Shown in pieces: positions 13,865-64,000 of a DNA stretch of 64,000 bases (the first letter of the stretch is position 1; the number at the start of each line of letters is the position of its first letter). Origin of the DNA: Primorskyibacter flagellatus (lineage in GTDB: Bacteria; Pseudomonadota; Alphaproteobacteria; Rhodobacterales; Rhodobacteraceae); NCBI RefSeq assembly GCF_014638275.1, contig NZ_BMFJ01000002.1:558001-622000 (forward strand), read 5' to 3'. Under the pieces are notes generated by a model. That model had not been told where the DNA came from. It saw only the letters and a program-made list of their open reading frames with translations, and searched no databases. The position numbers and the translations under genes are program-made.

Positions 13865-14815
13865 ATGTCCAAGCCCCCCCTCACGCTCTACCTCGCCGCC
13901 CCGCGCGGCTTCTGCGCAGGTGTCGACCGCGCAATCAAGATCGTGGAAATGGCACTGCAGAAATGGGGCGCCCCGGTCTACGTCCGCCACGAGATCGTGC
14001 ACAACAAGTTCGTCGTGGATGCCCTGCGCGACCAGGGCGCCGTCTTTGTTGAGGAACTGGACGACTGCCCGGAAGACCGCCCCGTCATCTTCTCCGCCCA
14101 TGGCGTCCCCAAGGCCGTCCCGGCCGAAGCCGCGCGCCGCGAAATGGTCTATGTCGATGCCACCTGCCCGCTGGTCTCCAAGGTCCATATCGAGGCGGAG
14201 CGGCATCATGAGAACGGCCTCCAGATCGTCATGATCGGCCACGCAGGCCACCCCGAGACGATCGGCACCATGGGTCAGCTCCCCGACGGAGAGGTCCTGC
14301 TCGTCGAAACCGAGGCCGACGTCGCCACCCTTTCGGTCCGCGATCCCGCGCGGCTTGCCTTCGTCACCCAGACCACCCTTTCGGTCGATGACACGAAGGG
14401 CATTGTCGCCGCGCTGCAGGCGCGCTTCCCCGCCATCATCGGCCCCCACAAGGAAGACATCTGCTACGCCACCACCAACCGGCAGGAAGCCGTGAAGGCC
14501 ATGGCCGGAAAGATCGACGCCATGCTGGTCGTCGGTGCGCCCAACTCCTCCAACTCCCGCCGTCTGGTCGAGGTCGCGGCCAAGAACGGCTGTGCCTATG
14601 CCCAGCTTGTCCAGCGTGCCACCGATATCGACTGGCGCGCGCTGGAAGGCATCCGCGCCATCGGCATCACCGCCGGCGCCTCCGCCCCGGAGGTGCTGGT
14701 GAACGAGGTCATCGATGCCCTGAAAGCCCGCTACGACGTCACGGTTGAACAGGTCGAAACCGCCACCGAAAACGTCGAATTCAAGGTGCCCCGCATCCTT
14801 CGCGTCCCGGCCTGA
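13865..14815 (+). CDS. ispH: 4-hydroxy-3-methylbut-2-enyl diphosphate reductase
   Basis: A 316-residue IspH (LytB), the last enzyme of the non-mevalonate isoprenoid pathway, making IPP and DMAPP. The three Fe-S cluster cysteines are visible in [23 protein letters not shown] and [12 protein letters not shown]. The stretch [15 protein letters not shown] is family-typical. GGAAGGAG precedes the ATG. With dxs and ispA, also in this window, it marks the DXP pathway in this organism. Confidence 0.96.
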
Positions 14816-14823
14816 CATTCACG

Positions 14824-14882
14824 TTGCCGCAAATATCCTCGGGGGAATTGGCCGTAAGGCCAAGGGGGGCGGACAGCCCCCG
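14824..14882 (+). repeat. Dispersed 3'-UTR element, copy 1 (after ispH)
   Basis: The core TTGCCGCAAATATCCTCGG is followed by two hairpins, TTGGCCGTAAGGCCAA and GGGGGCGGACAGCCCCC. It lies 8 bases after the ispH stop, in the sense direction. Related copies are at 18234-18288, 46202-46251, 52597-52647 and 62736-62802. A terminator or mRNA-end role for ispH is plausible. Confidence 0.65.
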
Positions 14883-17317: not shown

Positions 17318-18223
17318 CTACAGACGGCTGCCGGCGGGCACAGGCCGGCCGCGCAGGAACTCCGCCGCATCCTGCGGGCCCTTGCCCGCCCGTTGCAACC
17401 GCAAAAGCCGCACCGCCCCCTCCCCGCAGGCCACGGTCAGCGCATCGTCCAGCGCCTCGCCCGGCGCCCCTGCCCCGGTGGCGATACGGGACCCGAGCAG
17501 CTTCACCCGCTCCCCCCCGATCTCGCACCAGGCGCCGGGAAAGACCGACAGCCCGCGGATCAGCCGGTCAACTTCTTCCACGGGCTTGCTCCAGTCCACC
17601 CGCGCCTCTGCCTTGTCGATCTTGGCGGCATAGGTCACGCCCTCGTCCGGCTGCACCTCGGCCACCAGCCCGTCCAACTCCGCCAGTGCTTCCACGATCA
17701 GCCGCGCGCCCAGCACGGACAGCCGGTCATGCAGCTCCGCCGTGGTCTCCTCCGCCCCGATCTCCAGCGCCTCGCGCAGCAGCACCGGCCCGGTGTCGAG
17801 CCCGGCCTCCATCTGCATGATGCAGACCCCGCTCTCCGCGTCGCCCGCCATAATAGCACGATGGATCGGCGCCGCCCCCCGCCAGCGCGGCAGAAGCGAG
17901 GCATGGATGTTCAGGCACCCTCGTTCCGGCGCGTCCAGCACAGCCTGCGGCAGGATCAGACCATAGGCCACGACAACCGCAACCTCCGCCCCGAGCGCGG
18001 CAAACTCCGCCTGCGCCTCCGCCCCCTTCAGCGACACCGGATGCCGCACCATGAGCCCAAGCGCCTCAGCCCGCGCCTGCACGGGCGATGGCCTGTCCTT
18101 CTTCCCCCGCCCCGCAGGCCGCGGCGGCTGGCAGTACACGCAGGCAATCTCATGCCCGGCATCGACCAGCGCCTCCAGCACCGGTACCGAAAATTCCGGC
18201 GTTCCCATGAAGACGATCCGCAT
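17318..18223 (-). CDS. fmt: Methionyl-tRNA formyltransferase
   Basis: A 301-residue Fmt, which formylates initiator Met-tRNA with 10-formyl-THF. The N-terminal [19 protein letters not shown], the [11 protein letters not shown] stretch, the catalytic block [16 protein letters not shown] (Asn, His) and the C-terminal tRNA-binding domain ([14 protein letters not shown]) are all present. I chose the ATG at 18223, preceded by AAGGAG. It acts with the deformylases encoded just upstream: Fmt adds and Def removes the formyl group. Confidence 0.95.
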
Positions 18224-18233
18224 GTCCTGCTCC

Positions 18234-18288
18234 TTCATCTTGCCCAAAATACTCCGGGGAGCCCGAGGGGCAGCGCTCCTCGGCCCCG
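18234..18288 (+). repeat. Dispersed element, copy 2 (between def2 and fmt)
   Basis: CATCTTGCCCAAAATACTCC followed by a G-rich run and an imperfect hairpin (GAGCCCGAGG..CCTCGGCCCC). Here the element reads opposite to both flanking genes, unlike the other copies, which read in the sense of the gene they follow. Confidence 0.6.
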
Positions 18289-18295
18289 CACTCTC

Positions 18296-18784
18296 CTACC
18301 GGCGCGCCTTGCGCAGCAGCATGTCCCGTTTCACCCTGCTCAGCCGGTCGAAATACATCCGCCCCGCCAGATGGTCGATCTGGTGCTGCACCGATGTCGC
18401 CCAGAGCCCGACGAAATCCCGCTCCTCCACTGCGCCCTCCGCGTTGAGAAACCGCACCGTCACCGCCCGCGGCCGTACGACCTTTGCCGACACGCCGGGC
18501 AGACAGGGCGAGGCCTCCTCGTGCTCGCGCGGCTCCACGCTCGCATGCAGCACCTCCGGATTGGCCATGCGCACCGCCTGCCCCCGGTCCGAGGACGCAT
18601 CGACCACCGCCAGCCGCAGCATCACCCCGATCTGTACCGCCGCGAGACCGACGCCCGGCATCGCCTCCATCGTCGCGACCATGTCGTCCCAGTGGGCGCG
18701 GACGTCTTCCGTCACCTCCGGCACATCCGCCGCGACGGTCTTCAGACGCCGGTCGGGCCAACGCAGGATCGGGCGGATGGCCAT
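18296..18784 (-). CDS. Peptide deformylase paralogue, catalytic Glu replaced
   Basis: A 162-residue protein of the peptide deformylase fold. The first motif is intact (GVGLAAVQIG). The second, normally EGCLS, reads SPCLP, keeping only the metal-binding Cys and the next Leu. The third, normally HEIDH, reads HQIDHLAG; the codon is CAG, so the catalytic Glu is Gln. Metal ligands (Cys, His, His) remain. It overlaps the canonical def upstream by one base (TGATG). I expect weak or no deformylase activity; a ribosome-binding, modulatory or altered-substrate role is inference. Confidence 0.85.
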   Translation of the reverse strand: MAIRPILRWPDRRLKTVAADVPEVTEDVRAHWDDMVATMEAMPGVGLAAVQIGVMLRLAVVDASSDRGQAVRMANPEVLHASVEPREHEEASPCLPGVSAKVVRPRAVTVRFLNAEGAVEERDFVGLWATSVQHQIDHLAGRMYFDRLSRVKRDMLLRKARR

Positions 18785-21611: not shown

Positions 21612-21641
21612 ACAAAAAGAAACCCGGGCACTAGGCCCGGG
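21612..21641 (-). terminator. Intrinsic terminator (end of candidate sRNA / response-regulator 3' region)
   Basis: On the minus strand a 7-base-pair stem (GCCCGGG / CCCGGGC, 5-base loop) is followed directly by TTTCTTTTTGT. This is the clearest Rho-independent terminator in the window. Confidence 0.85.
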
Positions 21642-21715
21642 CAAGTCCAACAGGGAGGTACATATCAAACCCGGATATGTGCGGGTTGGTTCCCGAAGGT
21701 TCCGAAAAACATGTT
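21612..21715 (-). ncRNA. Candidate small RNA downstream of the response regulator gene
   Basis: About 140 bases after the response regulator stop lies a compact non-coding stretch. On the minus strand it contains a hairpin with arms ACATATC/GATATGT, then the single-stranded C-rich stretch ACCTCCCTGTTGGACTT, then the strong terminator at 21612-21641. The CCTCCC run is complementary to Shine-Dalgarno sequences, the usual seed of trans-acting sRNAs. A -10-like GATAAC lies just upstream (about 21715-21720). It may be an independent sRNA or one released from the 3' UTR. The 5' end is a guess. Confidence 0.45.
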
Positions 21716-44975: not shown

Positions 44976-45167
44976 GTCGGAAGGGGCACTGCCCTGCCGC
45001 CTCATGGCGACAATTGGAAGGGGGAGGGGGCGCTGCCCAGCCGATATTTGAACTGCTCGGTGGCGGTATTCTGCCGTGAGCAATGATATGTGTCTGCATC
45101 GCCTCGACCGGTAGCGAAGGCCGCTGAAAAATCTTGCTTTTGCCCGCGGTACTGGTTTCCTGGCGCC

Positions 45168-46091
45168 ATGGTCAAGCTGGTTCTGCTGCACAAGGCGGAC
45201 TCGATCTACGAGGACGAGCCCGACGTCGTCTACGACTTCCCCAGGTCGTACCTGAAGGCGGTAGAGGAGGCCGTCGGCGACTGGGTCGTCTACTACGAGC
45301 CGGTGAAGGCGGGGCCGCGCGGGTACTTCGGCGTCGCCAAGATCTCGCGGGTCATCCCCAAGCCGGGTGTCGAGGGCCGCTTCCTCGCGCTGATCGAGCC
45401 GGGGAGCTTCCTGCCCTTCGACAGCGAGGTCCCGCGCCTTGCGGACGGGCGCCCCCTGGAGGCTTCGCTGACCGAGCCGGACGGCACACCCAAGAAGGGC
45501 GGGTCCGTGCAGCTTGCCGTGCGCCGACTGCCGGAGGCGGACTTCGCGCGGATCGTGAACCTCGGCTTGCCGCAGGAGCTGGAGCGGATCGAGGCGACCC
45601 GCTATGACCCGCAGCTGGCGGAGCTTGCCGAGGGTGCGGAGCTTTTCGAGCGCCCCGTTCTAGAACGCCTGACGCGCCGGCCTTACCGCGAGGTCGCTTT
45701 CCGCCGGAAGGTCCGCGAGGCCTACGGTTACCGCTGTGCCATGTCGGGCCTGCACCTGCGCAACGGCGGTGGCCGGCCCGAAGTTCAGGCAGCCCATATC
45801 CGGCCGGTCGAGCGGCAGGGGAGCGACTCCGTCCGCAATGGCCTCGCCCTGTCGGGAACGCTGCACTGGATGTTCGACCGTGGCCTGATCTCCGTCGCCG
45901 ACGACTGCGAGACCATCCTCGTCTCGCGCAACAAGGTCCCGGGCGATGTGGTCGGCCGGCTGCTGGCGCCGGATGGCAAGCTGCTGAAGCCCGAGGACCC
46001 GCGCAACGCACCCCACCCGGAGAACCTGCGCTGGCACAGGGAGAACGTCTTCGGGCAGGTTGTAAGCGGCGAGACCCTGGACTGGGGCTGA
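45168..46091 (+). CDS. HNH endonuclease with PUA/EVE-like N-terminal region
   Basis: A 307-residue protein. The C-terminal HNH_2-type nuclease core is visible: YGYRCAMSGLHLR, QAAHIRPVE, RNGLALSGTLHWMFDRGLISV. The N-terminal approximately 110 residues (YDFPRSYLKAVEEAVGDWVVYYEPVK, GYFGVAKISRVIP, LIEPGSFLPFD) look like a PUA/EVE/ASCH-type reader domain, of the sort that recognises modified bases in type IV restriction enzymes; this is a resemblance by eye. I see no partner methylase. The preceding 190 bases lack genes. Acquired defence DNA is possible. Confidence 0.82.
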   Translation: MVKLVLLHKADSIYEDEPDVVYDFPRSYLKAVEEAVGDWVVYYEPVKAGPRGYFGVAKISRVIPKPGVEGRFLALIEPGSFLPFDSEVPRLADGRPLEASLTEPDGTPKKGGSVQLAVRRLPEADFARIVNLGLPQELERIEATRYDPQLAELAEGAELFERPVLERLTRRPYREVAFRRKVREAYGYRCAMSGLHLRNGGGRPEVQAAHIRPVERQGSDSVRNGLALSGTLHWMFDRGLISVADDCETILVSRNKVPGDVVGRLLAPDGKLLKPEDPRNAPHPENLRWHRENVFGQVVSGETLDWG

Positions 46092-46201: not shown

Positions 46202-46251
46202 GCCCCCGTCGCGTGCCGCGACTCCCCCGGAGTATTTCCGGCAAGATGAAG
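46202..46251 (-). repeat. Dispersed 3'-UTR element, copy 3 (after dxs)
   Basis: On the minus strand, CTTCATCTTGCCGGAAATA, CTCC, a G-run, then GTCGCG-TGC-CGCGAC and another G-run. It starts 4 bases after the dxs stop, in the sense direction, and precedes the hairpin terminator at 46139-46164. Confidence 0.65.
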
Positions 46252-46254
46252 GAT

Positions 46255-48180
46255 TCAGGCCTTGCGCTTGACCTGCGCCACCCCGAGCACCTCGAGCACC
46301 TTCGCCTCGATATCAGGCGCGTTCATCGCCGCCGTCGCATACATGTCCTCGGGTGTGGACTGGTCAATGAACACGTCCGGCAGCACCATGGAACGGTACT
46401 TGAGCCCGTGGTCGAACACGCCCTCCTCCGCCAGCAGCTGCGCAACGTGAGAGCCGAAGCCGCCGACCGCACCCTCCTCGATCGTGATGAGCGCCTCGTG
46501 ATCGCGGGCAAGCCGCAGGATCAGGTCGCGGTCCAGCGGCTTGGCGAAACGGGCGTCCGCCACCGTCGGCGTGATCCCCCGCGCGTCCAGCGCCTCGCAG
46601 GCCGTCATGACCTCTGACAGGCGCGTCCCGAACGAGAGGATGGCGACGCGCGCCCCCTCCCGGATCAGGCGGCCGCGGCCGATTTCAAGAACCTCGCCCT
46701 TCGCGGGCAGTTCCACGCCCACACCCTCTCCGCGCGGATAGCGGAAAGCGATCGGGCCGGAGTCATGGGCGGCGGCGGTGGCGACCATGTGCTTGAGCTC
46801 CGCCTCGTCGGCGGCGGCCATCACCACGAAGCCCGGCAGGTTGGCAAGGTAGGCGACGTCGAAGCTGCCCGCATGGGTCGCCCCGTCCGCCCCGACCAGC
46901 CCGGCGCGGTCCACCGCGAAGCGCACCGGCAGGCGCTGGATGGCCACGTCATGCACCACCTGATCGTAGCCGCGCTGCAGGAAGGTCGAATACATCGCGC
47001 AGAACGGTTTCATCCCGCCCGCCGCCAGCCCGGCAGCGAAGGTCACGCCGTGCTGCTCGGCGATGCCGACGTCGAAACAGCGCGACGGATAGCGTTCCGC
47101 CATCAGGTTCAGCCCGGTCCCGTCCGGCATTGCGGCGGTCACGGCGACGATCTTCGGATCCTCCGCCGCCAGCCGCACCAGTTCCTTCCCGAAGACGGAG
47201 GTGTAGGACGGCGCGTTGGACGGCGCTTTCTTCTGCTCCCCCGACACCACGTCGAACTTGCCCGTCGCATGGCCCCGGTCGATGGCCCGTTCGGCGGGGG
47301 CATAGCCCTTGCCCTTCTTGGTCACCACATGGATCAGCACCGGACCCTGCGCGCGGGCCTTCACGGTGCGCAGCACCGGCAGAAGCTGGCTCATGTCGTG
47401 TCCGTCCAGCGGACCGATATAGGAAAACCCAAGTTCCTCGAACAGCGTCCCGCCGACGGCGAGGCTCTTGAGCATGTCCTTGGCCCGCTTCGCCCCCTCC
47501 TGGAACGGCGGAGGCAGCAGGCTCGCCATGCCCTTGGCCGCCGCCTTCAGCTCCTGGAACGGCGCCCCGGCGTACAGCCGCGAGAGGTAGGACGACAGCG
47601 CCCCGACCGGCGGCGCGATGGACATGTCGTTGTCGTTCAGGATGACGATCAGCCGCTTCTTCAGCGCGCCGGCGTTGTTCATCGCCTCGAATGCCATGCC
47701 CGCGCTCATCGCGCCATCCCCGATCACCGCGATGGCATCGCCGATCCCGTGTTCGGGTGCACCGCCAAGGTCGCGCGCCACGGCGAACCCGAGCGCCGCC
47801 GAGATCGAGGTCGAGGAATGCGCCGCGCCGAACGGGTCATAGGGCGACTCCGACCGCTTGGTAAAGCCCGACAGCCCGCCCTTCTGGCGCAGGGTGCGGA
47901 TGCGGTCGCGCCGCCCGGTGAGGATCTTGTGCGGATAGGTCTGGTGCGACACATCCCAGACGATCCGGTCCTTCGGCGCGTCCCAGATCGCATGCAGCGC
48001 CACGGTCAGTTCCACGACCCCCAGCCCCGCGCCCAGATGCCCGCCGGTTTCCGACACCGCCGAAATCGTCTCCGCCCGCAGTTCATGCGCGACCTGCCGG
48101 AGTTCGGCATCCGAGAACCGTTTCAGGTCGGCGGGCTCCGTCACGCGGTCCAGCAGCGGGGTGTCGGGTCTCTGGCTCAT
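46255..48180 (-). CDS. dxs: 1-deoxy-D-xylulose-5-phosphate synthase
   Basis: A 641-residue thiamine-diphosphate enzyme that joins pyruvate and glyceraldehyde 3-phosphate, the first step of the DXP route and a precursor for PLP synthesis by PdxJ. Marks are [16 protein letters not shown], the ThDP motif [45 protein letters not shown] with the catalytic Glu, and a C-terminal Rossmann-like domain. I chose the ATG at 48180 ([10 protein letters not shown]), 19 bases after ispA. It is last in xseB-ispA-dxs. Confidence 0.96.
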
Positions 48181-48199
48181 CCTGCCCTCCTCGGGGCGA

Positions 48200-49060
48200 C
48201 TAGCTTTGGCGCGAGATAACGAAGCGCGCGGCCTGCCGCAAGCAATCCGCCTCCGCACCATGGCCCGAAAGAGCTTCACAGGCGGTTTCCACCAGGCGCG
48301 CGGCCTCTTTCCGTGCACCGTCGAGACCAAGCAGCGACACGAAGGTCGCCTTGCCGGCCTCTCCGTCCTTGCGCAGCCGCTTGCCGGTCTGCGCCTCGTC
48401 TCCCTCAACGTCCAAGATGTCGTCCGCGATCTGGAAGGCAAGGCCAAGCGCGCGGGCATAGGCCCCCATGGCCCCCGTCTCAGCCCCCGCCATCACCGGC
48501 CCGGCCTGCGCCGACCATTCGATCAGCGCGCCGGTCTTCTTGGCCTGCAGTTCGGTGATCTCCGCCAGGGTCAGCGGCACCGCGGCGGTTTCCGCGGCGA
48601 TGTCGAGAGCCTGCCCCTGCACCATCCCCCGCCCCCCGGCAGCCCGTGCCAGCCCGGCGGTCAGCGTCACCACCCTCTCGGCGGGCAGCGCCATATGCGC
48701 GACCAGATCGAACGCCAGCGACTGCAGCGCATCCCCGACCAGAACCGCCGTCGCCTCGTCCCACTTCACATGCACCGTCGGAAGTCCCCGCCGCAGGTCG
48801 TCGTCGTCCATCGCGGGAAGGTCGTCATGCACAAGCGAATAGGCATGCATCGCCTCGATCGCCGCCGCCGCGTCCAGCGCCGGGGCCGACTCCACGCCGT
48901 GCAACGCCGCCCCCTCGCAGACAAGGAATGCCCTCAGCCGCTTTCCCCCGCCGCAGGCATGGCGCATCGCCGCGCCGATTTCTCCGGGCATCGGGGCCAG
49001 AGCGGCGTCCAGCCGGGCAGAGACCGCCGCCGCGACCTCGGCGATCCGCCGGTCGAACAT
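48200..49060 (-). CDS. ispA: Polyprenyl (farnesyl) diphosphate synthase
   Basis: A 286-residue prenyl synthase that condenses IPP with DMAPP/GPP. The first Asp-rich motif is [14 protein letters not shown] and the second is DDILDVEGD, with [11 protein letters not shown] for IPP binding. The residues just before the first motif ([10 protein letters not shown]) fit a farnesyl-length product. The ATG at 49060 lies 1 base after the xseB stop. The xseB-ispA-dxs cluster is common in proteobacteria. Confidence 0.94.
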
Positions 49061-51597: not shown

Positions 51598-51669
51598 GTC
51601 GCGGATTTTGGCGCAATTTTATGTCCGATACGGACCAGACACGCGCAACAAATGGAAAAGGTGAAGACG

Positions 51670-52539
51670 ATGGAAGGCGCTTACGACGATCGCGACGGCA
51701 AGATCTGGATGGACGGCAAGCTGGTGGAATGGCGCGATGCCAACGTCCACCTGCTGACCCACGGCCTGCACTACGCCTCCTCGGTGTTCGAGGGTGAGCG
51801 GTGCTACAACGGCAAGATCTTCAAGGGCGTGCAGCACTCCGAGCGTCTGAAGAAATCCGCCCAGTGGCTCGACTTCGAAATCCCCTACACGGTGGAAGAG
51901 ATCGAGAAGGCCAAGTACGACATGCTCGCCGCCAACGGCTGGAAGGACGCCTATGTCCGCGCCGTAGCATGGCGCGGTTCGGGCGAGGACATGGGCGTCT
52001 CCGCCCGCCGCAACCCCGTCCGCCTCGCCATCGCGGGCTGGGAGTGGGGCAACTACTACGGCGACGCCAAGATGAAGGGCGCCAAGCTCGACATCGCCAA
52101 GTGGAAACGCCCCTCCCCGGAAACCATCCCCGTGCACGCCAAGGCCGCCGGTCTCTACATGATCTGCACCATGTCCAAGCACGAGGCCGAGGCCAAGGGC
52201 TGCTCCGACGCGCTGTTCATGGACTACCGCGGCTACGTGGCCGAGGCGACCGGCGCCAACATCTTCTTCGTCAAGGACGGAGAGGTGCACACCCCCAAGC
52301 CCGACTGCTTCCTCAACGGCCTGACCCGCCAGACGGTGATCGGCATGCTTGAAGACAAGCAGATCAAGGTGAACGAGCGTCACATCATGCCGGAAGAACT
52401 GGAAAGCTTCGAACAGTGCTGGCTCACCGGCACCGCCGCCGAGGTCACCCCGGTCGGCCAGATCGGAACCTACAACTTCGAGGTCGGCGCGCTGGCGAAG
52501 GACATGGTGGAAAGCTACGAGAAACTCGTTCGCGCATAA
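51670..52539 (+). CDS. ilvE: Branched-chain amino acid aminotransferase
   Basis: A 289-residue fold-type IV PLP enzyme. YDDRDGKIWMDGKLVEWRDANV, HGLHYASSVFEGERCYNG, and EATGANIFFVKDG are the family marks; the PLP Lys lies in PVHAKAAGLYM. It interconverts branched-chain amino acids and 2-oxoacids. I prefer the ATG at 51670 (MEGAYDDRDG), preceded by GGAAAAGGTG, over the ATG at 51652, which has no ribosome binding site. A strong terminator follows. Confidence 0.93.
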   Translation: MEGAYDDRDGKIWMDGKLVEWRDANVHLLTHGLHYASSVFEGERCYNGKIFKGVQHSERLKKSAQWLDFEIPYTVEEIEKAKYDMLAANGWKDAYVRAVAWRGSGEDMGVSARRNPVRLAIAGWEWGNYYGDAKMKGAKLDIAKWKRPSPETIPVHAKAAGLYMICTMSKHEAEAKGCSDALFMDYRGYVAEATGANIFFVKDGEVHTPKPDCFLNGLTRQTVIGMLEDKQIKVNERHIMPEELESFEQCWLTGTAAEVTPVGQIGTYNFEVGALAKDMVESYEKLVRA

Positions 52540-52590: not shown

Positions 52591-52596
52591 ACCGTC

Positions 52597-52647
52597 TTCA
52601 TCTTGCCGGAAATACTCCGGGGGCCCGGGGGCAGCGCCCCCGCCCGG
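52597..52647 (+). repeat. Dispersed 3'-UTR element, copy 4 (after ilvE)
   Basis: TTCATCTTGCCGGAAATACT, then CC and a G-run, CCCGGGGGCAGCGCCCCC hairpin-forming sequence, and a GC-rich end. It lies in the sense direction after the ilvE terminator and ends 3 bases before the stop of the convergent permease gene. Confidence 0.65.
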
Positions 52648-52650
52648 GCG

Positions 52651-53865
52651 TCAGCCCGGCGACATCCCCCTCAGCCGCTCCGACCGCCGCCGCAGGATCT
52701 CCAGCGTCGCCAGCAGCGCGATGGAAATACACACCAGGATCGTCGCCACGGCGAGGATCGTCGGTGAGATCTGCTCCCTCAGCCCGATGAACATCTGCCA
52801 CGGCAGCGTCTTCTGAGCGGCCGATCCGACGAACAGCACCACCACCACCTCGTCGAACGACGTGATGAAGGCGAACAGCCCGCCCGAGATCACGCCGGGC
52901 AGGATCAGTGGCATCTGCACCCGGAAGAAGGTCGTCACCGGATCCGCCCCCATGTTCGCCGCCGCCCGCGTCAGCGACCGGTCGAACCCGACCAGCGTGG
53001 CCGTCACCGTGATGATGACGAAGGGAATGCCCAGAACCGCATGGGCCAGGATCACCTTCACATATCCGACAAAGCTCTTGGACAGCCCGACCGAATCCTC
53101 GAGGAAATTCCCGAGCGTGGAGTAGAAGAAGAACATCCCCGTGGCCGAGATGATGAGCGGCACGATCATCGGGGAAATCAGCACCGCCATGATCGGCCGC
53201 TTGAACGGCACGTGGCTCTGGCTCAGCCCGATGGCCGCCAGCGTGCCGAGCGAGACCGAGATCACCGTCGCGATCGGCGCGATGATGAGGGAGTTTTTCA
53301 GCGCCAGCTGCCAGTCCGAGGTCTGGAAGAAGTCGCGGTAGTGCTTCAGCGAATAGCCCTCCGGATCCAGCCGCAGCATCTCCGGGGTGAAGGTGAAGAA
53401 ATCCTCCGCGTTGAAGGACAGCGGCAGCACCACGAGGATCGGCGTGATGAGGAAGACGAAGATCGCCCCGCAGATAAACAGGAAGCTGTTCCACCACAGC
53501 GTCTGCCCCGGCGTGTAGTACAGCGGTACCCCGTCGCGGTAGCGCCCCCGCCCGACCCAGTAGGCGAACCAGCCGAGCACCGCGCCGATCAGCGCCCCCC
53601 CGACCGCGCCGCCGAACCCGCCGAAGACCAGCCCGACCAGTGCGAAGGCTCCGATCACCGCCCATCTCCCGACGGCCTTCTTCGGCACCATGGTGTTGAG
53701 CACATAGCCCAGCCCCGCCCCGACCGCCGCGCCCAGCACCAGCCCGATCAGCGGCGCACCGACCACGTTGCCGGTCAGGAACCCGAGGATCAGACCGAAA
53801 CCCCCGACCATCAGCAGCGTGAAGTTCATCGGCGGACGGCCCGTCTTGATCACAAGTTCGCTCAT
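52651..53865 (-). CDS. ABC transporter permease, PotC/YdcV type, with N-terminal membrane extension
   Basis: A 404-residue inner membrane permease. The part from about residue 120 is a normal PotC-type permease, with the ATPase-contacting loop AAANMGADPVTTFFRVQMPLILPG. The first about 115 residues are a Gly-rich hydrophobic extension (GGFGLILGFLTGN, GLVLGAAVGAGLGYVL, FGGFGGAVGGALIGAVLG) that could form four extra membrane helices; ordinary PotC proteins are near 270 residues. It starts 5 bases after the other permease, in the same operon. Confidence 0.9.
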   Translation of the reverse strand: MSELVIKTGRPPMNFTLLMVGGFGLILGFLTGNVVGAPLIGLVLGAAVGAGLGYVLNTMVPKKAVGRWAVIGAFALVGLVFGGFGGAVGGALIGAVLGWFAYWVGRGRYRDGVPLYYTPGQTLWWNSFLFICGAIFVFLITPILVVLPLSFNAEDFFTFTPEMLRLDPEGYSLKHYRDFFQTSDWQLALKNSLIIAPIATVISVSLGTLAAIGLSQSHVPFKRPIMAVLISPMIVPLIISATGMFFFYSTLGNFLEDSVGLSKSFVGYVKVILAHAVLGIPFVIITVTATLVGFDRSLTRAAANMGADPVTTFFRVQMPLILPGVISGGLFAFITSFDEVVVVLFVGSAAQKTLPWQMFIGLREQISPTILAVATILVCISIALLATLEILRRRSERLRGMSPG

Positions 53866-62128: not shown

Positions 62129-62791
62129 ATGTACGATACGCTGCGCGACCGGATCTGCCTGCTCGACTACCCGCCCGGCACACGGCTGTCAGAGGTGGAG
62201 CTGGCCGCCGAATTCGGAACCTCCCGCACCCCGCTTCGCCGCGTGCTGGCGCGGCTGGAGGACGAGGGGCTGCTGACCTCCCGCCACGGCGTCGGCACCA
62301 TCGTCACCGACCTCGACATGGAGGAGATGGCGCGCACCTACGCCCTGCGCGAGGAACTGGCCGACCTTGTCGGACGGCTCGACCCGGTTCCGCCGGGGGC
62401 GAAGGATCTGGCGGATCTCGACACGTTCCTGTCGCGGGGAGAGGCGCTGCGCAGAGCGCCGGAGGCAAGGACCTTTGCCCGGCTGAACATGGACTTCTTC
62501 GCGTTCGGCCTTCGGTTCACCGCGAACGCCCCCCTGCGCGACGTGTCCGAGCGGCTGTATTACCGCACCGCCCGCATCTGGCTGCACCGGGTGCCGGAGC
62601 TGGACCTGTCCGAGGAAATCGCGATCTTCCTGTCCGAAATGACCGAATCCGCCCGCGCCCTGCGCGCCGGCGACACCCGCGCGGCGGCGCTGATCCGGCG
62701 GGCGCATATCTCCATGTGCCGGCAGAGGCTGCTGACCGGGGACGGGGGGCTTTGCCCCCCGGCGCTGCGCGCCTCCCCCCAGGATACTTAG
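62129..62791 (+). CDS. GntR-family regulator (FCD type)
   Basis: A 220-residue regulator. The winged helix covers residues 1-65 (MYDTLRDRICLLDYPPGTRLSE, AAEFGTSRTPLRRVLARLEDEGLL), followed by an FCD-type helical ligand domain that begins near YALREELADLVGRL. Its ATG is directly after the deacylase stop. The last about 17 residues (GDGGLCPPALRASPQDT) are encoded by a dispersed repeat (62736-62802), so the natural C-terminus was probably lost. It likely controls the divergent transporter and M24 operons. Confidence 0.88.
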   Translation: MYDTLRDRICLLDYPPGTRLSEVELAAEFGTSRTPLRRVLARLEDEGLLTSRHGVGTIVTDLDMEEMARTYALREELADLVGRLDPVPPGAKDLADLDTFLSRGEALRRAPEARTFARLNMDFFAFGLRFTANAPLRDVSERLYYRTARIWLHRVPELDLSEEIAIFLSEMTESARALRAGDTRAAALIRRAHISMCRQRLLTGDGGLCPPALRASPQDT

Positions 62792-62802
62792 CGCAAGGCG
62801 AA
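62736..62802 (-). repeat. Dispersed 3'-UTR element, copy 5 (after the FAD oxidoreductase)
   Basis: On the minus strand, CTTGCGCTAAGTATCCTGG, a G-run, GGCGCGCAGCGCC, a second G-run and GGGGGGCAAAGCCCCCC. It starts 4 bases after the oxidoreductase stop in the sense direction, and its plus-strand side encodes the tail of the GntR gene. Confidence 0.6.
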
Positions 62803-62805
62803 AGA

Positions 62806-64000
62806 TCAGGCGGCGCGGTCGGTCAGACGGGCCCAGCCATATTCGGCTGCCAGCCAGGCGCGGCGCAGCGGGCCGAGGGGGAAGCGCGGGGGTTCGCGGC
62901 GGAAGGCCTCCGGCAGGGGCGCGCGGAGCGGCTTGCCCTGCGAGAGATCGGCGAGCAGCATGCCCAGGTAGCTGCCCATGGCCACACCGTTGCCATGGTA
63001 GCCGAAGGCGGCGAAGGCGCCGGGGATCGTCGGAATGGGCCCGCAGTAGGGGGTGAGAGACGCGGTCAGGCAGACAAACCCCGACCAGTGCGACGGCGTC
63101 CCCACATGGGCCCAGTGCGGGAAAGCGCGGGCGAAGTCGTGTTTCATCCGGGTCAGCGCGCGGGTATCGTTCCCCACCGAGGCGATCAGCCCGCCGCGCT
63201 GGCCGAAGACCATCACGTTGTCCGGCGTCAGGTGAAAGTAGTGCAGCAGGCGGCGGTCCTCGTAAGCCATCTGGTGCGTGGTCCAGCCCTGCGCCGCCAG
63301 TTCTTCCGGGGTCAGGGGCCGGGTGGCGAGCACGGAGCTTTGCGCCGGAAGGGTGCGGCCGCGAATCCATGCGGGGATGTCTTCGGCGGTATAGCCGTTG
63401 GTGGCGAGGATCAGGCGGTCGGCCTCGACCACCGCGTCGGGGGTGGTGACGCGGATGCGGGTGCTGTGGTCGATCCGCAGGGCGGGAGAGAGGCCGTGGA
63501 CCTTTGCGCCCGCCGAAACAGCGGCCCTGAGCAGACCAATCGCGTATTTCCGGGGATGCAGCGAAAAGCCGAGCGGCACCGACAGCGCGCCGTGCCAGTG
63601 CCCCGCCATGCCATGCGCGGCCATATCGGCGCCGTTGATGACAGTCGGTTCGGTGTCGTAGTCGCGACCCATCTCCTCGGCCATCGCGGGCAGGTGCCGG
63701 GCCATGGCAAGGGAATGGGCGACGATGGATTCGCCGTGGTCCTGCCGGTCGGCGTCGATCTCCAGCCGGCTCAGCAACGCGGAGACATGGTCGATGGCGG
63801 CCCGTTCGGCGCGACGGACCTCTTTCGCGCCGCCCCTGCGGTCAAGCTCCGCATCCGTTGCGCGGGTGCCGCCGAGACAGCAGAAGCCGCCATTCCGCCC
63901 CGAGGCACCGAAGGCCGGAAACTGGGCGTCCAGCAGGGTGACGTCCACCCCGTCCTCGGCAAGGTGCAGCGCGGCGTTCAGCCCGGTGAAGCCCGCGCCG
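62806..64000 (-). CDS. FAD-dependent amine/amino-acid oxidoreductase (DadA/PuuB type), N-terminus outside window
   Basis: At least 398 residues are visible; the frame is open to base 64000, so the start lies to the right. GAGFTGLNAALHLAEDG is the tail of the FAD-binding GxGxxG motif. FPAFGASGRNGGFCCLGG, the FGQRGGLIASVGNDTR block and the C-terminal GYHGNGVAMGSYLGMLLADL match the gamma-glutamylputrescine oxidase/DadA type, which oxidises C-N bonds of amines with FAD. It converges with the GntR gene. The context suggests it acts on the amine product of the neighbouring operon. Confidence 0.85.
   Translation of the reverse strand, partial: GAGFTGLNAALHLAEDGVDVTLLDAQFPAFGASGRNGGFCCLGGTRATDAELDRRGGAKEVRRAERAAIDHVSALLSRLEIDADRQDHGESIVAHSLAMARHLPAMAEEMGRDYDTEPTVINGADMAAHGMAGHWHGALSVPLGFSLHPRKYAIGLLRAAVSAGAKVHGLSPALRIDHSTRIRVTTPDAVVEADRLILATNGYTAEDIPAWIRGRTLPAQSSVLATRPLTPEELAAQGWTTHQMAYEDRRLLHYFHLTPDNVMVFGQRGGLIASVGNDTRALTRMKHDFARAFPHWAHVGTPSHWSGFVCLTASLTPYCGPIPTIPGAFAAFGYHGNGVAMGSYLGMLLADLSQGKPLRAPLPEAFRREPPRFPLGPLRRAWLAAEYGWARLTDRAA

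Follow-up and report, generated by a model that had tools for sequence, protein, structure and literature searches.

The window, by which we mean the whole 64-kb stretch of Primorskyibacter flagellatus DNA that was analysed, holds five copies of a small element, at the genes for LytB/IspH, fmt and def, dxs, a class IV aminotransferase and a DAO-family protein (Table 1). A reading made from the letters alone had proposed at least five related copies, and all five are found again, each with at most 3 mismatches, in a scan with a 26-letter consensus. The same scan gives no sixth copy in the window at up to 5 mismatches and 7 further matches at 6-7 mismatches; the reversed control has 5 matches at up to 7. 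The core described in that reading as common to the copies is longer than stated there and takes in CTTCAT. Its perfect window form, CTTCATCTTGCCNNAAATACTCC, occurs in three copies (18233+, 52596+ and 46251-), and the other two (14817+ and 62803-) are sub-dialects with ATCCT or AAGTATCCT. Further, four copies had been placed directly after a stop codon: three do lie 1-3 nt behind one, but the copy at 52596 is farther away and sits behind another hairpin. The copy at 18234, named there as the exception, lies antisense between def and fmt.

Table 1. Element copies in the window, with their cores, hairpins and neighbouring genes, and the one RNA family match.
Feature	Position	Strand	Core	Hairpins	Genes
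Copy 1	14817..14881	+	ATTCACGTTGCC-GC-AAATATCCT, 3 mismatches to consensus, then G-run	14848-14863 with GTAA loop; second G/C hairpin 14865-14881	Tandem gap, 1 nt past stop of LytB/IspH gene (13865-14815)
Copy 2	18233..18283	+	Perfect	One, CCGAGGGG(CAGCG)CTCCTCGG, 18263-18283	Between fmt (17318-18226, -) and def (18296-18784, -), antisense to both
Copy 3	46205..46251	-	Perfect, 46226-46251	First, GTCGCG(GCA)CGCGAC, 46208-46222; second degenerate or lost	3 nt past stop of DXP-synthase gene dxs (46255-48459, -); HNH gene (45090-46091, +) opposite
Copy 4	52596..52642	+	Perfect	One, CGGGGGC(AGC)GCCCCCG, 52626-52642	56 nt past stop of class IV aminotransferase gene (51652-52539, +), another hairpin in between; convergent gap, BPD_transp_1 transporter gene (52651-53865, -) on far side
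Copy 5	62744..62803	-	TTTCGCCTTGCG-CT-AAGTATCCT, 62778-62803, 3 mismatches to consensus	GGCGC(GCA)GCGCC, 62761-62773; GGGGGGC(AAA)GCCCCCC, 62744-62760	2 nt past stop of DAO-family gene (62806-63948, -); overlaps 3' end of convergent GntR gene (62129-62791, +)
SorX sRNA (singlet oxygen resistance RNA), Rfam	21616-21687	-			

At the gathering threshold of Rfam the window contains SorX only, away from the elements (77.9 bits, cut-off 46.6). The copy at 52.6 kb has zero Rfam matches at E<=1, and locus L006 has four, all far under the cut-off.

The genome of the window (G000) comprises 4.6 Mb in 10 contigs and is 93.9% complete. It contains 109 matches to a shorter core, CTTGCCNNAAATACTCC, at up to 2 mismatches (reversed control 5) and 135 to a longer one, TTCATCTTGCCNNAAATAYYC, at up to 1 mismatch (reversed control 0). 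The consensus, as read from 90 copies of this genome, is YTTCATCTTGCC-NN-AAATA(CTC/TCC)C, a directional, non-palindromic core of 21-23 nt that is asymmetric and bipartite, with a nearly free 2-nt spacer (NN). Usually 1-2 G/C hairpins follow, and the whole unit spans 33-65 nt. We distinguish three endings: class A, in which a G-run and a variable hairpin follow, frequently with another hairpin of the form GGGGGC(AGC)GCCCCC; class B, with CGCCGGAGGC directly after the core; and class C, a core without hairpin. In the listed copies the junction between core and ending reads YYCC-GGGG or YYCC-CGCCGG, and the stems vary.

Among the matches listed from a scan of 84,980 species genomes, all but one of 80 loci belong to Rhodobacteraceae by name, where the family placement of the genera follows general taxonomic knowledge, and the remaining one is labelled only Alphaproteobacteria. 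The 30 plasmid records with a match all carry the names of Rhodobacterales genera. A phage origin has no support, with zero matches at E <= 1 among 50,697 phage records. Across 385 genomes of the class, matches to a generic core occur once each in 31 of the 380 that lie outside the family (reversed pattern 17); the pattern is near chance outside Rhodobacteraceae. Within the order, the strict core is present in 121 of 292 genomes, and a looser class-A form in 80 of 149 genomes and 48 of 73 genera, with 4 matches in all for the reversed control. The remaining genomes of the order may lack the element or use a dialect outside these patterns.

Placement relative to genes

We studied the neighbours of the element in G000, in a second genome of the same genus (G207) and in 113 loci of other genomes, 80 of which are listed by name. 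Genes were called with our own script and not taken from annotation, and the 113 loci were all fetched with one exact class-A pattern, so that this form is over-represented among them. The 93 copies of G000 divide into 22 in sense with both neighbours, 29 antisense to both, 27 in convergent gaps, 4 in divergent gaps and 11 inside open reading frames. For the 71 copies of G207 the corresponding numbers are 14, 27, 19, 4 and 7, and for the 117 copies of the other loci 25, 35, 41, 3 and 12, with 1 more at an edge. A looser pass over 90 copies gives the same picture.

In the 113 loci, gaps that bear the element are tandem in 59 cases, convergent in 40 and divergent in 3, against 194, 45 and 104 for element-free gaps of at least 40 bp. 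The difference between convergent and divergent gaps with and without the element is highly significant (p = 4e-14). Both the association with gene 3' ends made in the sequence-only reading and the non-random position that it had named as a test are thereby borne out.

Its sense-direction reading does not stand. Excluding the 30 of 281 copies inside predicted reading frames, some of which may be mis-called ends, and the 1 at an edge, the pooled tandem gaps hold 61 copies in sense and 91 in antisense (p = 0.018), so any orientation bias leans, if anything, towards antisense. Three of the four copies described as sense in the window sit in convergent gaps, where any element reads with one neighbour. 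As a general rule, a sense-strand RNA element is ruled out by these orientation counts.

Copies are also found between same-strand, operon-like genes: def-fmt in the genome of the window and gap-fba in Cereibacter azotoformans. The latter copy, TTTCATTTTGGCCGAAATATCCC, is of another dialect and lies at 1500-1550 of a locus on plasmid pORIO1 (L309), within a same-strand tkt-gap-fba-rubisco cluster. In a locus of the Ruegeria pomeroyi megaplasmid (L308, 1400-1560), two diverged elements that differ in dialect can be seen by eye, back to back in opposite orientations and seemingly in one common convergent gap.

Read on the reverse strand, the core gives GGAG-TATTTNNGGCAAG-ATG-AAG, which looks like a ribosome site with a start codon. 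Starts are uncertain in the antisense tandem copies: for 12 of 56, the next gene is predicted to begin at the ATG within the core, and such calls are probably an effect of the gene caller.

A replication-strand polarity of the KOPS kind has no support, as the strand of the element does not track GC skew (p = 0.80) and G255 is mixed. On contig C1 of G000 the strand shifts from mostly minus to mostly plus near 1.35 Mb, a boundary picked after the data were seen (10/21 vs 29/12, p = 0.0018).

Hairpins and loops

The hairpins were studied in 166 distinct class-A endings, taken from G000, G207 and the 113 loci of other genomes. A stem of at least 4 bp is present in 164 of them and one of at least 6 bp in 159, compared with a mean of 35.2 and a maximum of 42 after shuffling. 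There are 90 different stem sequences, and an exchange of arms between copies whose stems are equally long gives perfect pairing in only 746 of 5390 trials. Judged by pattern scans and this arm-swap test, the stems covary, since swapped arms seldom pair perfectly. The hairpins of the window had been described as differing in sequence while keeping their pairing, with covariation in the stems as the check to be made, and both points hold over this larger sample.

The loops are strongly directional. With at most two hairpins counted for each copy, GNA/GNRA loops occur 65 times on the strand of the element and 3 times on the other, and AGC/AGA loops 127 and 0 times, besides 100 loops of other kinds. 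In copies that are antisense to both neighbours the counts are 18 vs 1 and 31 vs 0. As the loops keep to the strand of the element in sense and antisense settings alike, the direction is a property of the element rather than of the transcript. C-GNA-G triloops are unusually stable in DNA, and a fold of the element in single-stranded DNA is therefore conceivable.

Termination or control of RNA decay, the RNA functions put forward in the sequence-only reading, may apply. The hairpins could act in RNA, from either strand, as a bidirectional terminator or a stabiliser of RNA 3' ends, the core being a site of loading, processing or roadblock. The strong excess between convergent genes agrees with this, as does the closeness to the stop codon of tandem copies in sense, 21 of 36 of which have their core start within 20 nt past it. 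In the 113 loci, moreover, sites with a hairpin and a T-rich tail are rarer at gene ends that bear the element (12/136 vs 47/271, p = 0.025), and two G207 sites without element carry, by eye, a hairpin with a T-run. However, G000 and G207 together show no such depletion and differ in the opposite direction (28/149 vs 15/127, p = 0.13), so that the two samples contradict each other on whether the element takes the place of canonical terminators; one G207 site, moreover, has by eye both the element and a hairpin with a T-rich tail. Of the 160 class-A endings, out of 171, that have a recognisable last hairpin, just 3 show at least 5 T within 8 nt past it; the other 157 have no U-tract. The independence of the loops from the direction of transcription, the copies between operon-like neighbours and the conservation of cores without hairpin (see below) also speak against it. 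A full terminator role is doubtful because copies lie in the def-fmt and gap-fba gaps and T-runs are so rare, and for terminator and stabiliser taken together we find this explanation rather unlikely.

Core dialects and site history

The core comes in one or a few dialects per genome. The listing of dialects per genome is partial, and what follows describes the listed copies. The form TTCATCTTGGC..ACTCC is the dialect of G020 and of nearly all of G023, TTCTTCTGGCC..ATCC (once ATCT) that of G012, G025 and G026, TTCCTCTTGCC..ACCT that of G010 and TCATCTTTCC..ACTC that of G004. G207 has TTCATCTTGCC..ACTCC plus TTCTTCTGGTC..ACCTC and a few others, ACTCC and ATCCC forms are both present in G000, and G099, G106 and G147 are mixed. 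The dialects do not form one simple code, since one left half is combined with right halves that differ from genome to genome. The spacer varies throughout the dialects, although a dominance of G at its second base means that it is not fully free.

Of the 71 copies of G207, 29 have a counterpart at an orthologous site among the 93 compared copies of G000, and for 20 of them both flanking genes match. In these pairs the core is 95.6% identical over 19 positions, a value biased upwards by the demand that both copies match the pattern. Free of this bias, the spacer is 41% identical (37.7% in random pairs) and the 12 nt upstream 40%. Four pairs without hairpin show 0-1 core changes in 19 positions, yet only 2-6 of the following 15 nt agree. 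Hairpin-less cores are kept at orthologous sites in the class C copies L038, L092 and L043 and their G207 partners L211, L213 and L271, and the pair L043/L271 sits between divergent genes. The def-fmt site of the window is also common to both genomes, and the stem differs there on both sides.

The two core forms of G000 differ in their sharing: a G207 partner is present for 7 of 42 ATCC copies and for 22 of 48 ACTC copies (p = 0.004). To avoid pattern bias, 15 unmatched G000 sites were sought in G207, and 13 were located. At six of these the element is present, either in another dialect or with a more diverged core, and at 2 of the six its orientation is opposite. The other seven have no element; two are the T-run sites mentioned above, and among the five with neither, two gaps measure at most 15 nt.

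Within G000, 20 pairs among 41 class-A copies are at least 85% identical over their 34-nt endings, and the flanks of the 18 listed pairs are 7-65% identical; in G207, the 21 class-A copies yield 2 such pairs. L015 and L053 in G000, as well as L019 and L046, have identical 34-nt endings in unrelated flanks, with the same spacer within each pair and one ACTC and one ATCC core in each. Near-identical units with unrelated flanks show that a discrete piece is being copied or exchanged, be it by copying proper or by gene conversion.

A plasmid site of Leisingera, flanked by an SDR (or another) gene on one side and a FAD-oxidoreductase gene on the other, could be compared in seven records. The core is of TTCAYCTTTGC type in NJS204, NJS201, L. 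thetidis and S132, of TTCTTTCTGGTC type in M658 and M527, and intermediate in L. methylohalidivorans. All seven have an identical G-run and identical hairpins, GGCCGCAGGCC and GGGGGCAGNGCCCCC, except for one base in NJS201 and the base written N. Core dialect and hairpin can thus change independently of each other. The element is absent in one L. caerulea and two C. sphaeroides records, where the neighbour is different or overlapping.

The core might be the site of a sequence-specific protein that binds double-stranded DNA, of nucleoid or roadblock type and with a specificity that varies between lineages, the hairpins being separate and adjacent by chance. An asymmetric bipartite core with a nearly free spacer would suit such a protein, as would the use of either orientation, the conserved copies without hairpin and the separate change of core and hairpin. 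A chance neighbourhood, however, fits poorly with near-identical units of core plus hairpin in unrelated flanks and with a loop strand that is fixed relative to the core. Further, two or more dialects per genome would need paralogous factors, and no candidate protein was found, so that we consider the idea improbable.

Taken together, the units are shared, are copied or converted, and are replaced and rewritten. The sequences show a directional, discrete unit at gene ends, with dialects, which selection or constant renewal keeps in place.

Proposed reading and known systems

Our preferred reading, to which we give an even chance, is that of a REP-like family of small interspersed repeats, here only in Rhodobacteraceae, whose core would be read as DNA by a putative trans-acting factor. 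We infer a reader at the DNA level because both orientations occur and cores without hairpin persist. The factor, of evolving specificity, would recognise the core in double-stranded form or single-stranded beside the hairpin, and would spread the unit, protect it, or do both. Where transcribed from either side, the hairpin would probably give stability to RNA 3' ends or define them, and would probably separate neighbouring transcripts, for which a full stop of transcription would not be needed; such a separation would explain why the element is frequent between convergent genes. Against the reading, no candidate was found for a mobilising enzyme or a core-binding factor. The seven located G207 sites without element, the two elements in opposite orientation, the upward bias of the core identity, the dominance of G in the spacer and the varied halves of the dialects also count against it. 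For a PPR-type reader, the PF13041 profile has no match, a result of little weight as its control also matched nowhere.

A bolder idea, which we put forward tentatively as a possibility, is that the core is the recognition word of a fast-evolving trans-acting Rhodobacteraceae factor that marks gene 3' ends in DNA, and that sites are rewritten in place to follow this factor, independently of the adjoining hairpin. If true, the whole family would have a system at its gene ends that belongs to none of the known REP/RAYT, terminator or uptake-sequence kinds. Important marine and phototrophic model bacteria belong to Rhodobacteraceae, and in them a repeat present at scores of gene ends in a genome, in dialects that differ between genomes, would matter for the annotation of 3' ends, operon boundaries and searches for regulatory RNA. 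The dialects also give a handle on the reader, namely a factor whose specificity varies with the core.

In the literature, searched by topic and by sequence letters, none of the papers listed describes such a Rhodobacteraceae element by its title or abstract start; most subscription papers lie outside this search, which makes it weak evidence of novelty. A term search finds neither 'Rhodobacter' nor 'Paracoccus' in the main text of PMC3733652 or of PMC12306157, a recent survey of REPs.

Intrinsic (Rho-independent) terminators resemble the element in having a G/C hairpin soon after the stop codon and in convergent gaps. In contrast to them, the element has as a rule no T-run, carries a long conserved core, occurs in either orientation and is also present between same-strand neighbours.

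The DNA uptake sequences of Neisseria and Pasteurellaceae share other features with it: a conserved non-palindromic word, species dialects, a bias to gene ends and sometimes inverted pairs. The element differs from them in its far fewer copies and its adjoining hairpin module, and we know of no sequence-specific DNA uptake in Rhodobacteraceae.

REPs are described as lying predominantly between unidirectional and convergent genes (PMC3733652), and the element is likewise extragenic and avoids divergent gaps. Small interspersed palindromic units in many copies, in tandem and convergent gaps and with several subfamilies per genome, are common to it and to REP/BIME (PMC3733652), and copying within the genome is indicated here as well. 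In the element, however, the conserved part is the non-palindromic core, while the stems are hypervariable and cores without hairpin are conserved. As in REPINs, which are tied to RAYTs (PMC3116915), there is a discrete unit capable of forming hairpins, with subfamilies within a genome; unlike them, the element occurs mostly as single units, and many of its sites are common to two species.

An authentic REP or REPIN moved by a RAYT (Y1) transposase would agree with the placement (PMC3733652), the many copies, the palindromes and the several subfamilies per genome. Against this, the Y1_Tnp profile (PF01797) has no match in G000 or G207, although its controls matched, and such a REP is largely refuted for G000. 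Across the order, 30 of 292 genomes have a match, as do, by a tally made by eye, 3 of the 26 genomes with at least 30 strict-core copies, one of these under the cut-off. Further, adjacent pairs less than 150 bp apart number just 4 in the G000 loci, 2 in the G207 loci and 2 in the others, and none of the listed copies has a tag of GTAG/CGTC type. We regard this origin as very unlikely.

The element, then, resembles REP/BIME in placement and spread, and departs from it in RAYT, doublets and tag. A REP-like system without the usual transposase, as our preferred reading would have it, bears on what moves and keeps such repeats.
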